Under the pieces are notes generated by a model that saw nothing but the letters and a program-made list of their open reading frames with translations, did not search any database and was not told the origin of the DNA. A program made the position numbers and the translations under genes. DNA of 32,753 bases from Oscillospiraceae bacterium (GTDB lineage Bacteria; Bacillota; Clostridia; Oscillospirales; Acutalibacteraceae): assembly GCA_015066165.1 (NCBI GenBank), contig SVOX01000003.1, positions 1 through 32,753 on the forward strand. Reading direction: 5' to 3'. Position 1 is the stretch's first letter. Every line of letters starts with the position of its first letter. Positions 23,186-32,753 of this stretch are shown piece after piece.

Positions 23186-26100
23186 TTACGCTTTTTTAAG
23201 TGCTATTCTTGCTTTCTTAAGTTTTAAAAGTGATTTTTCTACATCTTTTTGAAGTTTATCAGCACTGGCTAAAACAACTTCCGCTTCGGTTCTTGCTGTT
23301 TTATATTCAGCATAACTTTCGGCTGTGTAGTCACTTTCTTTAATTTTACGGGCAAGTTCTTTTTCAAGATAGTGAGTATCAACAAGTTTACCGCCGTTAA
23401 ACAACACTTTTTTAATCTTAATCCATTTACCCGAATGGTCTTTAATAATAATTCTTGCAGATAAAACGGGTGTTTTTTCAAAATTTACAGTACGTTGGTC
23501 TTCCATATCGTTAAGGTCGGCAACATTAATATAATTTTCACCGTCTTTTGAAATTTGAAACTCGGCTCTATAAAGTCGGTCATCACCGCAAGACACAAGT
23601 GTAAAACTTTCAAGTTCTAACGGATGGCTAAACTTAAAGGTGATATTATCATTTGGAACTTGCGGTCCGTTTTGCCAGTAAATAAGTTGGTCGTCATCTT
23701 TCAATACGTTTCCAACAGCATTTTCTTTCCACTGTTCACGGTTGGTGGAAACTGTTGCAATTTCAGGTACCGAGATAACAAGTTTTTCTTTGGCATTTAT
23801 AATACGTTTTACTGCGTAATCAAAGGCATCTTGGTCACTTTGGGAGTTGCAAAGCACCGAAGCGGCAACAAGACACGCTAACTCATATTCCGAGAAACTT
23901 TCAGGTGCATAGTCAATTTTAGAAATATCTTCCAAAAGAAGTTGCACAAGTGCCGAAGTATCGCAAGGTAAAAACTCTTTGGCTTCGAGTTTAACCATTC
24001 TATAAGCCAACAAATTAATCAGCGAAGCGTTTTCTGTTTGCTTTGCATTTTCAAATACCGCTAAAATATCGTTTACACGGTTTTCCATTAAGCCCAAATC
24101 TGTGGCTTTAATTTTTTCACAACCTTGTTTTAAACAAATTTTTCCGTCGCCGTTCATACTGTCAGCGGTTGTGTCACCGCTCAAAACAGTAATGCCGCCA
24201 ATTACACCTGTAAAACCTTCACCTATTTTACCAAGCGGTAAGTCAAGAGAAGAAGAATTGAAATGAGCTAACTTTTCGCCGTGATAATATCCTTTTGCAA
24301 CAAAAACACCGTCAACACAAAGACCTGCCTCTATTCGCACGTCTTCAATAAGCGCTGTGGTAATTTTAATGTTTTGCATACGGCCTGTATCTATCACGTA
24401 CGGGAAACTGTATTTAAAGCCCTGACGCTCGTACCCGATTTTACCCGTTCCTTCATAATTCAGGTAAACCTTTGTGTCACGGCTTGAGAAAATAACTGCG
24501 TTTTCTCTAACATTATCATCAATTAAAATATCCATTGAAATGGTACTGTTATATCCCACTTCGGTCATATCGGTTGTGATATAAGAATTTGCATCAAACA
24601 AAAGGCCTTTTTCGGTTTTCTTTGCGCCAAAATTTTCCACAGTATGACCATTACCGCTTTGGTCTTCAAGACCGCAGGCAAAATCAAACTTTGCAATAAT
24701 ACCGTCAGCATTTGGCTCAAAATATTTAAACGGATTAACACCGGGGGCAAATTTTCCAAATTTTTTTGTCAAGGCAACAAAATCATCACCTGTCATCTCG
24801 CCTGTGTTTTTGCCTTGCCATGCTTTTTCAGCAGTGGTCATAATAGCGTTTTTAACACTCTCAAAAACGTCAGTTTGACTTATACCCGATTTACAGTCAT
24901 TCCAAAACGTTGGTTCATATCCCAAAAGCAAAGGACTTGCCATTGGCATTTCATAACCCACAACCTTGTTAACGTTCTTATTTTCGTAATTCCATTTAGC
25001 GTCAATACGCATTTGATTGCCGTAATATGGGTTAGAAGGACAAATGTAAAGTGCTTCACGAACGTCGTTATTTATAAACTTATGACCTTTCTCAATCATA
25101 AGCGCAGGGTTTGTGGCAGTATCAATCCAGAAATTGAGAACCGCATCGGTAGATACAGGGGTTTTGCCTGTAACACCGCTACCTTCTTCACCGCCAAGCA
25201 CCGCCCAATATTGCGGAGTGATACCCTTATTATTAAGGTAAACAATAAGCTCATTCAAATACTTGCGCTGTTGCTCATGCATACCTTCAACCCAGTATTC
25301 ATCATTACCGATATGCAAGCGTTTGCCACGAAAAACAGGGTCTTCGCCGTCAACCATTTCATCAATGAGTTCTTTAATAAATTTAAGCGATTTTTGAAGT
25401 TTTTCTTCGGTTGTAAGGTCCATCATACCGTTAAGTGAAATTTCTTTATCATAAAGTTCCAAAAATGCACAGTGACCGGGGGTATCAATTTCGTTAACCA
25501 TATCAATACCAAAACTTTCAGCCATTTTTTGAAACGCTTTGTAATCTTCTTGACGGTAAATTTTACCCTCTTCTAAATTGGCGTTAATTTGGGGGAATTT
25601 TTTACTTTCAATACGGAAAACGGTGTGTGTTTCACCGCCGTTGTCGTTTATATGCATATGTAATTCGTTCATTTTAAAATACGCCATATAACGAGCAATT
25701 TCGTGCATATAGTCAAGTTGTATAAACGTACGTCCAAGGTCAATCATAAGACTGCGCACAGGGTACTGCGGATAGTCACGAATAATACCGCAAGGAAGTA
25801 ATTTTTTATCAAATAAAATTTGGGTAATAGTTGTTCCGCCGTACAAAACACCTTTTTCAGTTGGGGCAGAAATTGTAACCTTTTGGGGCTCAATCTCCAC
25901 ATAATAACCCTCACTGCCAAGTTCGGTATTATTTGATAACTCAAGAACTATATCGCCATCACAATCACTTATTGCAATATTTACACCAAGCATTTTTTCA
26001 AAGTAAAATGCAATTTGCTCGGCTTTTTCTTTAAGAGACGTATCTTTATAATATATTTTAGAAGTATCTTTAAGCAAAAACTCTCCGCTGTCGCCCTTCC

Positions 26101-26434
26101 ATTCACGAAGTGTTGGTAAAACTTGCGGTTTTTTATTTTCACCTTGTTCTTTATATAGTCCCGGAACAATGAAATTTACTTCATTAAAATTGTCTATAGC
26201 AGTATCGTTTAAATCTTTTTTATTCGTCACACGGTACATTACCGAAACCGCAGTATCAAAAAGCGGACTGTAAACCCTACCGTCAAGGTCAACAACCGTT
26301 AAATTTGAAGAACCGTAAAGCGAAACATTAAATCCATCCCACTTTGGCAAAATAATACTTTTACCGTCTTGCGATAATGTCGGTGGAGTAAATTTAATTT
26401 GTTCAAGTATTTTTGAAGCAGTAGTTGTACTCAT
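23186..26434 (-). CDS. Glycoside hydrolase family 20-like protein with LamG-like and F5/8-type C (discoidin) modules and C-terminal helical (FIVAR-like) region
   Basis: YPVRSLMIDLGRTFIQLDYMHEIARYMAYFKMNELHMHINDN, NEIDTPGHCAFLE, LHIGNDEYW; LamG-like GIIAKFDFACGLEDQSGNGHTVENFG; discoidin-like NGPQVPNDNITFKFSHPLELESFTLVSCGDDRLYRAEFQISKDG. ATG 26434 follows AAGGGAGA (ORF track starts 26461). Confidence 0.87.
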   Translation of the reverse strand: MSTTTASKILEQIKFTPPTLSQDGKSIILPKWDGFNVSLYGSSNLTVVDLDGRVYSPLFDTAVSVMYRVTNKKDLNDTAIDNFNEVNFIVPGLYKEQGENKKPQVLPTLREWKGDSGEFLLKDTSKIYYKDTSLKEKAEQIAFYFEKMLGVNIAISDCDGDIVLELSNNTELGSEGYYVEIEPQKVTISAPTEKGVLYGGTTITQILFDKKLLPCGIIRDYPQYPVRSLMIDLGRTFIQLDYMHEIARYMAYFKMNELHMHINDNGGETHTVFRIESKKFPQINANLEEGKIYRQEDYKAFQKMAESFGIDMVNEIDTPGHCAFLELYDKEISLNGMMDLTTEEKLQKSLKFIKELIDEMVDGEDPVFRGKRLHIGNDEYWVEGMHEQQRKYLNELIVYLNNKGITPQYWAVLGGEEGSGVTGKTPVSTDAVLNFWIDTATNPALMIEKGHKFINNDVREALYICPSNPYYGNQMRIDAKWNYENKNVNKVVGYEMPMASPLLLGYEPTFWNDCKSGISQTDVFESVKNAIMTTAEKAWQGKNTGEMTGDDFVALTKKFGKFAPGVNPFKYFEPNADGIIAKFDFACGLEDQSGNGHTVENFGAKKTEKGLLFDANSYITTDMTEVGYNSTISMDILIDDNVRENAVIFSSRDTKVYLNYEGTGKIGYERQGFKYSFPYVIDTGRMQNIKITTALIEDVRIEAGLCVDGVFVAKGYYHGEKLAHFNSSSLDLPLGKIGEGFTGVIGGITVLSGDTTADSMNGDGKICLKQGCEKIKATDLGLMENRVNDILAVFENAKQTENASLINLLAYRMVKLEAKEFLPCDTSALVQLLLEDISKIDYAPESFSEYELACLVAASVLCNSQSDQDAFDYAVKRIINAKEKLVISVPEIATVSTNREQWKENAVGNVLKDDDQLIYWQNGPQVPNDNITFKFSHPLELESFTLVSCGDDRLYRAEFQISKDGENYINVADLNDMEDQRTVNFEKTPVLSARIIIKDHSGKWIKIKKVLFNGGKLVDTHYLEKELARKIKESDYTAESYAEYKTARTEAEVVLASADKLQKDVEKSLLKLKKARIALKKA

Positions 26435-26469
26435 AAAAAATCTCCCTTTATAAAATATCAACTGTTTAT

Positions 26470-26535: not shown

Positions 26536-26558
26536 AAAATCCACCAATGGTTGATTTT
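26536..26558. promoter_or_regulatory. Candidate operator of the HTH-serine dehydratase
   Basis: AAAATCCACCA-A-TGGTTGATTTT, 10 of 11 positions complementary, overlapping the + strand -35 box. Confidence 0.6.
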
Positions 26559-26579
26559 ATCATAAAAAATAATTATAAT
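26551..26579 (+). promoter_or_regulatory. Promoter of the HTH-serine dehydratase gene
   Basis: TTGATT-N17-TATAAT. Confidence 0.7.
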
Positions 26580-26640
26580 TAACTTTATAGTTGAGAAAAA
26601 ATGTTGTAAAATTAAAACACAAAAAAACGTGAGGTAAATT

Positions 26641-28071
26641 ATGGCATATTTTAATTACTCAAAAATAAAAGAATTTAGAATTAAAAACAAACTTACCCAA
26701 AAAGATTTAAGCCAGAGTTTAGGTATTAGTAACCGTGCGGTATCGAAATGGGAAAACGGTTTATCTTTTCCCTCAAGCCAACATATTTTTGAACTTTCAA
26801 AAATATTTGGTGTACCAATGGATATTTTTTATTCAAAAAACAGTTCTAATATCCAAAAACCAAAAATTACTGGTATGAGTTCTATAACCGAACTTTATAA
26901 AATAGGAAGAGGACCATCAAGTTCACACACAATAGGGCCTGAAAAGGCGTGTAAAGAATTTTTAAAAGAATATAAGGAAGCCGATTTCTTTAAAGCGGTT
27001 TTATGTGGTTCACTTGCCAAAACGGGCAAAGGTCACGGTACCGATACCGTTATTAAAAAAACTTTTTCACCTTATAAATGCCAAATTGAATTTGATTTTA
27101 ACAAAACCGATTTGCCCCACCCTAATACAATGTATCTTTTGGCTTTTAAAGGTAAAACCCAAATAGCCGAAAAACAAGTGCAAAGTGTTGGTGGTGGAAG
27201 TATTGTTTGGCAAGATGAAAAAGCCACACCCGAAAAAATCATATACCCTCATACAACCTTTAGTGACATTGCAAAATATTGTACACAGCACAATATTCGC
27301 ATTTGGGAATACGCTTTGAAATACGAAGATAATAACTTTAAAAACTTTATGCAAAAAATTTGGACCCAAATGAAAGATACTATTCACAAAGGTCTTGAAA
27401 GTGAAGGTATTTTACCTGGTGGACTTGAACTTCAAAGAAAAGCCAAAACTCTATATGAAAGTCAACACATAGACGAAACTGCCCAAACACGCGAAAACCG
27501 TATGGTATGTTCTTTTGCCTTTGCCACAAGTGAGCAAAACGCCTCGGGCGAAACAATAGTAACTGCTCCTACTTGCGGTGCGGCAGGGGTGCTTCCGGCA
27601 GTTCTTTATTACTACCAAAAGAAAAACGGCTTTACTGACAGCGAAATTGTAAATGCACTAATTACTGCAGGAATTATTGGAAATCTTATCAAAACCAACG
27701 CTTCAATTTCGGGCGCAGAATGTGGCTGTCAAGCCGAAATCGGCTCGGCTTGTGCTATGGCAGCGGCCGCTTTGGCAGAACTATTAGACCTTAATTTTGA
27801 TAAAATTGAATATGCTGCCGAAATTGCCATTGAACATCATTTGGGCCTCACCTGTGACCCAATTTGCGGACTTGTTCAAATTCCTTGTATTGAACGCAAC
27901 GCAGTTGCCGCAATGCGTGCCATAAATGCCGTAAATCTCTCAAGTTTTCTTTGGAGCACTCGTAAAATATCATTAGACAGCGTTATTAAAACAATGAAAG
28001 AAACCGGCCACGACCTGTCTTCACCATATAAAGAAACCTCCGAAGCCGGACTTGCTAAAATAAAATTATAA
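26641..28071 (+). CDS. XRE HTH domain fused to single-chain Fe-S L-serine ammonia-lyase (L-serine dehydratase)
   Basis: aa 1-62 HTH: IKEFRIKNKLTQKDLSQSLGISNRAVSKWENGLSFPSSQHIFELSKIFGVPMDIFY. aa 79-476 lyase: SSITELYKIGRGPSSSHTIGPEKA, GSLAKTGKGHGTDTVI, VTAPTCGAAGVLPAVLYYY, SGAECGCQAEIGSACAMAAAA, LTCDPICGLVQIPCIERNAVAAMRAINA. RBS GTGAGGT. Confidence 0.95.
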   Translation: MAYFNYSKIKEFRIKNKLTQKDLSQSLGISNRAVSKWENGLSFPSSQHIFELSKIFGVPMDIFYSKNSSNIQKPKITGMSSITELYKIGRGPSSSHTIGPEKACKEFLKEYKEADFFKAVLCGSLAKTGKGHGTDTVIKKTFSPYKCQIEFDFNKTDLPHPNTMYLLAFKGKTQIAEKQVQSVGGGSIVWQDEKATPEKIIYPHTTFSDIAKYCTQHNIRIWEYALKYEDNNFKNFMQKIWTQMKDTIHKGLESEGILPGGLELQRKAKTLYESQHIDETAQTRENRMVCSFAFATSEQNASGETIVTAPTCGAAGVLPAVLYYYQKKNGFTDSEIVNALITAGIIGNLIKTNASISGAECGCQAEIGSACAMAAAALAELLDLNFDKIEYAAEIAIEHHLGLTCDPICGLVQIPCIERNAVAAMRAINAVNLSSFLWSTRKISLDSVIKTMKETGHDLSSPYKETSEAGLAKIKL

Positions 28072-30231: not shown

Positions 30232-30256
30232 AAAAAAGTCCCCCTTGGGAACTTTT
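30232..30256 (-). terminator. Intrinsic terminator after the XRE gene
   Basis: Minus strand AAAAGTTCCC-AAGG-GGGACTTTTTT. Confidence 0.78.
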
Positions 30257-30659
30257 ACTTTTCTCCTTTTTCACTGATACCGCGGTATATTTCGCCCACC
30301 ATTCGTTCAATTTTTTCATCAGTTAAATCAGCACCGCCGTCCATAGCAATTATACTTAAAAATTTTTCAGCGCTTTCGCTATCGCCAATTTTACTTTTGA
30401 TTTGTTTTATAACGTAATCACTGTCTTTGTTTTGTGATAAAGTTTTAGGAGAAAATGAAAAAAGTTCGTCTATTGAACAACCAAACGCTTCTGCCATAGC
30501 CGGCAAAAGCAAAACATCGGGAGATGATTTTCCGTTTTCCCATTTTGAAACTGCTTGAAAAGTAACGCCAAGTTTTGTGGCAAGTGCTTCTTGAGTTAAA
30601 CCGCTAATCTTGCGGTATTTTTGAATATTTGCCGATAATATCTTACTAATTGCAGTCAC
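30255..30659 (-). CDS. XRE-family transcriptional regulator
   Basis: ANIQKYRKISGLTQEALATKLGVTFQAVSKWENGKSSPDVLLLPAMAEAFGCSIDELF. GTG start with AAGGAGATG RBS. Confidence 0.93.
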   Translation of the reverse strand: MTAISKILSANIQKYRKISGLTQEALATKLGVTFQAVSKWENGKSSPDVLLLPAMAEAFGCSIDELFSFSPKTLSQNKDSDYVIKQIKSKIGDSESAEKFLSIIAMDGGADLTDEKIERMVGEIYRGISEKGEK

Positions 30660-30730: not shown

Positions 30731-30782
30731 AAAACACAGGTTGAATTATTCAACCTGCAGTTGAGAGTATAACCTATGTTTT
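30731..30782. other. Nested/competing hairpins between MATE and XRE genes
   Basis: Inner CAGGTTGAAT-T-ATTCAACCTG (30737..30757); outer AAAACACAGGTT/AACCTATGTTTT (30731..30742 with 30771..30782), one mismatch; both use the same strand segment. Confidence 0.6.
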
Positions 30783-32592: not shown

Positions 32593-32656
32593 TAAAAAAC
32601 ATATAAAGCTCACACCCTGAAAACTGAACAAGTAATGGAAGGGATCGAAAAAATAG

Positions 32657-32753
32657 GTCAAGCCCTCGGTCTATTAGTACTGCCTAGCACACATGTCACC
32701 ATGCTTACACATGCAGCCTATCAACCCGGTAGTCTTCCGGGGACCTTACTAGC
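32657..32753 (-). rRNA. 23S ribosomal RNA, 3' end (partial, runs off the window)
   Basis: Plus strand GGTCAAGCCCTCGGTCTATTAGTACTGCCTAGC...CAGCCTATCAACCCGGTAGTCTTCCGGGGACCTTACTAGC matches the reverse complement of the conserved bacterial 23S 3' end. Confidence 0.95.

Follow-up and report, generated by a model that had tools for sequence, protein, structure and literature searches.

The E. coli trigger enzyme PutA, which degrades proline, represses its own gene when its substrate is absent, and BirA and NadR, which likewise combine a metabolic enzyme with a helix-turn-helix (HTH) domain and regulate genes of the same pathway, are also counted among the trigger enzymes (PMC8249747). The locus studied here lies in a 32,753-nt stretch of Oscillospiraceae DNA (the window) and encodes an HTH fused to an L-serine dehydratase. 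PutA is the nearest functional parallel of this fusion: it degrades an amino acid and, through a DNA-binding domain of its own, occupies operators at the gene that encodes it (PMC8249747). Compared with PutA, the sign of regulation by the fusion is predicted, and operator placement varies by lineage. PutA further differs in its DNA-binding domain, which is a ribbon-helix-helix, in its enzyme, and in its second target, the transporter gene putP rather than a biosynthetic gene. BirA and NadR are enzymes of cofactor synthesis or salvage, whereas the fusion is a catabolic iron-sulfur lyase with an HTH of the XRE/HTH_3 type. With DicA, RstR and lambda cI the fusion shares the HTH_3 domain and a predicted operator that is palindromic and about 17 bp long, with half-sites roughly one helical turn apart; unlike in these regulators, the HTH is fused to an enzyme, there is no separate effector or partner gene, and in several lineages the predicted sites are spaced from the promoter as for an activator. 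An excess of serine is toxic, its synthesis is costly, and to our knowledge the setting of its level in these bacteria has been little described. In the open-access literature we found nothing on an HTH-serine dehydratase fusion or its regulon. The novelty lies in bringing together an XRE domain, an iron-sulfur lyase, an operator and a serC target; the trigger enzyme as a kind is already known.

The fused gene and its upstream dyad

The features of the locus are collected in Table 1. The HTH_3 domain (E 8e-14) is in the same chain as a complete enzyme, with SDH_beta and then SDH_alpha C-terminal to it, and the 476-residue protein scores above the cut-off of TIGR00720 (L-serine ammonia-lyase, NCBIfam). 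When aligned to PDB 4rqo, an iron-sulfur type 2 L-serine dehydratase with beta and alpha domains, the protein keeps all of the GCQ, LTCDP and PCIERN cluster cysteine motifs, and differs in its added N-terminal HTH and its shorter enzyme part (about 400 vs. about 450 residues). No second such dehydratase was found in the window's genome, which is 88% complete. The 3' end of a 23S rRNA gene lies at the window edge (32654–32753, minus strand; Rfam RF02541).

Table 1. Features of the fused gene and of the region upstream of it in the window.
Feature	Positions	Strand	Basis
Reported 23-bp dyad, AAAATCCACCA-A-TGGTTGATTTT	26536..26558	.	sequence
O1, predicted operator, conserved 17-bp core ATCCACCAATGGTTGAT	26539..26555	.	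orthologous sites; matrix, 21.3 bits
P1, promoter of the first-pass annotation, TTGATT-17-TATAAT, -35 in the right arm of O1	26551..26579	+	unconserved in orthologues
P2, conserved gene-specific promoter, CTTTATAGTTGA...TAAAAT	26583..26612	+	genome-wide pattern search, spacing table
Probable ribosome binding site, GAGG	26631..26634	+	sequence
Fused gene, XRE/HTH_3 and single-chain iron-sulfur L-serine dehydratase, 476 aa	26641..28071	+	domain and motif searches
HTH_3-coding part (residues 9–62), recognition helix SNRAVSKWE	26665..26826	+	domain search, helix comparison

The first-pass annotation had drawn attention to a dyad overlapping a promoter upstream of this gene, and both are present as it described them (dyad centre at 26547, 10 of 11 half-site positions paired; TTGATT at 26551–26556 and TATAAT at 26574–26579). 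As a bare inverted repeat, the dyad is weak evidence, because dinucleotide shuffles of the AT-rich 179-bp intergenic region attain 10/11 in 2% of cases with a 1-nt gap and in 10% when gaps of 0–7 are allowed, and we do not regard such statistics as convincing proof by themselves. Comparison with the orthologous sites gave a different picture. The site in the window, whose half-sites are TCCAC/GTTGA, matches the orthologous-site consensus at 11 of 12 positions, which 0.05% of shuffles attain. When 24 dehydratase sites, that of the window left out, were used to train a palindromic matrix, the site reached 21.3 bits (0 of 2000 shuffles; top shuffle 14.1). The conserved unit is the 17-bp core, and the AAAA/TTTT flanks are not conserved among the orthologous sites. 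Judged against the orthologous-site consensus, the dyad in the window is real and not a chance match.

Conservation of the dyad with the fusion

Fused orthologues were gathered from the genus, family, order and class, and their upstream regions were read in the correct orientation. A 17-bp dyad, RTCAACY-N3-RGTTGAY, is found upstream of most of them, centred about 28–120 bp 5' of the start codon. Counted class-wide over the genes on the tree, with presence set at 10 or more of the 12 outer positions, the dyad precedes 25/42 fused genes vs. 0/51 unfused relatives; the unfused set contains nine genes of the window's own genus that are 69–73% identical in the enzyme part, all without the dyad. Seventeen of the 42 fused genes lack it at this strict cut-off, and L093, L094, L100, L101 and L125 have the same helix as the operator-bearing proteins, yet no dyad at that cut-off. 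The recognition helix follows the same pattern, as the operator accompanies 31–32 of the 37 fused proteins with the helix [RQ]A[VI]S[KN]WE and none of the seven with other helices (three of the latter, L102, L105 and L106, are encoded directly 3' of a co-directional gene). The fusion label has to change 11 times on the tree, and in no case does the dyad move in the opposite direction. Since well-supported branches carry just three fused/unfused contrasts, phylogenetic correction is weak and strict pairing is underpowered, and the association, very strong by count, is suggestive only after such pairing.

Conserved 5' of the orthologues and tied to the HTH by these counts and by the helix, the palindrome shares this feature with autoregulatory XRE operators. 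Its conservation upstream of orthologues was the check that the first-pass annotation had proposed for autoregulation, which is not refuted, and the proposal of an operator tied to the fused HTH is borne out by a dyad that is kept in fused orthologues, absent from the 51 unfused genes and absent where the helix differs. Control of the fused gene by its own HTH, acting at the dyad, seems to us quite likely.

The exact sequence RTCAAC-N5-GTTGAY occurs 0–2 times per genome in 20 fused genomes, nearly always at the fused gene, and the remaining TCAAC-N5-GTTGA matches in fused genomes are mostly coding or terminator-like. A pattern search of the window's genome gave seven other sites within one mismatch, all of them inside long ORFs. 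The first-pass annotation had suggested defining a regulon from like sites; at one mismatch in this genome there are only coding-sequence matches besides O1, and a wider regulon was rejected on this ground.

Several other operator-like sequences were noted. At 30739–30765, with a MATE-like transporter gene on one side and a separate XRE gene (30255–30659) on the other, there is a perfect 9-bp inverted repeat, CAGGTTGAA-TTA-TTCAACCTG, together with an operator-like TTCAACCTGCAGTTGAG (19.3 bits). This second high-scoring match of the window (30749) was set aside as part of the upstream transporter's terminator-like hairpin, with its T-rich tail on the minus strand; the element might still control the XRE gene. 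Operator-like sites at two unrelated loci of one genome, L136 (G618:C4:8736) and L092 (G618:C28), have a common 16-nt tail, GTTGATTTTGAGAGGT. In family f10, L099, L102, L105 and L106 have a fused HTH with a diverged or decayed recognition helix and no dyad, and these genes are close behind a co-directional gene, which looks like loss of the regulatory role. In genus g203 (L093, L094, L100 and L101), a variant dyad-like sequence (TTCTAATAATGGTAGAA in L094) lies over the -10 and the serC sites have TTCTACC half-sites, suggesting a shifted operator specificity.

Promoters and operator placement

Sigma-A-like promoters were tabulated against the dyad and fell into two upstream classes and several core-promoter classes; the automatic table held other candidates at some loci and, where these scored higher, the promoter common to the orthologues was chosen. 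The first-pass annotation had treated the -35 overlapped by the dyad, that of P1, as belonging to the main promoter. This is doubtful, as P1 is unconserved, its sequence being seen nowhere in the orthologue promoter table but in the window, and the conserved P2 lies downstream of it (-35 at 26584–26589, -10 at 26607–26612, with a GTTGA half-site directly behind the -35). The P2-type pattern CTTTATAGTT-N14-TANAAT has exactly one match in 10 of the 14 genomes searched, each at the fused gene.

In the window and at 12 further loci (L007, L017, L027, L085, L086, L087, L089, L090, L114, L116, L120 and L121), the dyad centre lies 37–39 bp 5' of the first base of the -35 in a TTTATA-16/17-TAWAAT-like promoter, with variants in L027 (TTTATG) and in the -10 of L017 (TATACT) and L090 (AATAAT). 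In a second class, one helical turn closer, the distance is 28–29 bp (L091, L095, L097, L117 and L123; by eye L096 and L118), and no assigned promoter of the upstream classes falls between the two. The intervening 28–30 bp are nearly randomised in sequence (41% identity vs. 33% when shuffled), so the length of the spacer is probably under selection. Relative to the start site the dyad lies at about -72 in the first class and about -63 in the second, and the class I activator positions of CRP resemble both. The location near -72 of P2 therefore suggests an activator or a cooperating upstream operator. The classes are an argument for activation and not a test of it, because they are not independent draws, the helical-phase argument resting on related promoters. 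Elsewhere the dyad has a repressor position: in L056, L057 and L059 it occupies the spacer of TTGACA-17-TAAAAT or TAGAAT, in L098, L103 and L104 it overlaps the -10 and the start (if translation of L098 and L103 begins at the upstream start codon, MIESVKK), and in L092 it is at the start. In the window such a core-promoter-blocking position exists solely with respect to the non-conserved P1. For the lineages with the dyad in the core promoter, repression is the natural reading of this placement.

The first-pass annotation had favoured simple negative autoregulation, in which a dimer would cover the -35 of P1 and keep the gene off until serine releases it, in the manner of PutA and proline. P1 does outscore P2 in the window (10.8 vs. 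7.9), the dyad is in the core promoter in the seven loci just named, and a site likewise lies over the -35 at serC of G942 and G832 and, judged by eye, at that of G1125 and G1176. On the other hand, P1 is unconserved in all orthologues of the same layout and P2 is conserved with fixed spacing, and the dyad near -72 of P2 is at a typical activator distance, which goes against the "negative" part of the proposal; we regard this explanation as rather unlikely. For the window's clade we lean slightly towards the view that the site activates P2 from upstream, or acts jointly with the GTTGA half-site that follows the -35 of P2. Repression in this clade, which we think doubtful overall, could possibly act via P1 or the weak second half-site.

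serC sites and a proposed serine balance

The second exact site of G353, G201 and G289 precedes serC-serA, with serC confirmed by TIGR01364, and the sites of G443 and G1189 likewise precede serC. In G942, which belongs to another family, two tandem sites 31 bp apart lie 5' of serC, the second being one of those over a -35. When the serC upstream regions of 50 genomes were scanned with the dehydratase matrix, 15 scored at least 11 and the next scored 3.8. These sites were present in 13/34 genomes with the fusion, 2/3 of uncertain status and 0/13 without it, the last being a confounded control because all but one of the 13 (12) belong to the genus of the window, whose fused genomes lack a serC site too. 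The scan found none in the window's genome, G004 or G058. Since the unfused control is weak, the argument is carried by the score gap and by recurrence in different families, the sites being found in six lineages (the G353 genus; G942 and G832; G1125 and G1176; G1107; G721, G669 and G635; G134 and G247). The first-pass annotation had missed that the site also marks serC in several lineages.

We also considered whether the dyad is bound by another XRE regulator, one that stands alone and has a similar recognition helix. These genomes have many such genes with similar HTH domains, and in two genomes with a serC site, G443 (L149) and G1189 (L148), both drafts that are 81–84% complete, the fused gene was not detected; against this, the dyad tracks the fused domain, being absent from all 51 unfused genes and from those whose fused helix differs, which makes a stand-alone owner improbable. 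The long membrane XRE proteins of the G353 genus were rejected as owners of the serC sites, as they are unrelated beyond the HTH. It is more improbable still that the dyad serves the divergent 1091-residue gene (23186–26461, minus strand) instead of the fused one: the two genes do share the intergenic region in which it lies, some 110 bp from the divergent gene's likely ATG at 26434, but orthologous loci keep the site with other neighbours in either orientation. Indeed, the upstream neighbours differ between loci and in orientation and the site persists, which argues that the fused gene is its owner; the divergent gene might conceivably be affected incidentally. Finally, a transcription terminator or RNA hairpin is hardly credible, for although extended arms with T runs after them occur 3' of a co-directional gene in L087, L116 and L091, the gene upstream of the dyad in the window is divergent, no stem and T run ends a co-directional gene there, and neither the terminator scan nor Rfam gave a match, while elsewhere the dyad sits inside a promoter spacer (L056, L057 and L059) and arm length varies around a constant 17-bp core.

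We return to the fusion as owner of the site. The site follows the fused gene class-wide and marks serC in some lineages, and for this reason the dyad is predicted to be the binding site of the fusion; very probably it is a DNA-binding site through which the serine-degrading protein controls serine supply. From the conservation of the site, its link to the fusion and to the recognition helix, the conserved promoter and the serC sites, all of which are read from sequence, we infer binding, serine as the ligand, and the sign of regulation. A dimer of the fused XRE HTH, probably brought together by the dehydratase part, would bind both half-sites (TCAAC/GTTGA, spaced about 11 bp), and the natural signal would be serine bound to the enzyme part, so that the fusion would be a trigger enzyme controlling its own gene and sensing serine via its own enzyme part. 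In the window's clade it would most likely act on P2 from upstream or together with the half-site behind the -35, and elsewhere the same operator in a core promoter would give repression.

With putative operators at its own gene and at serC, the protein would regulate its own pathway as trigger enzymes do, and because the operator also precedes serC in several lineages, it appears to balance serine breakdown against synthesis. In G942 and G1125, the dehydratase site is at activator distance and a serC site lies over the -35; in G353 and its genus, the dehydratase site is in the core promoter and the serC site is far upstream. Where both genes have sites, these positions suggest that breakdown and synthesis are regulated with opposite signs, which a homeostat would require. 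We tentatively propose, as a possibility short of even odds, a one-protein serine homeostat that sets its own synthesis and that of serCA with opposite signs, the sign being determined by operator placement and flipped between lineages.

The best reading of these features is that the fusion is a new XRE-type trigger enzyme for serine homeostasis. If this is true, the trigger enzyme would be a widespread one, and sequence would already have defined its operator, promoter and second target; its lineages would offer a natural experiment, with the operator missing where the HTH is missing and with activator-like and repressor-like positions among them.
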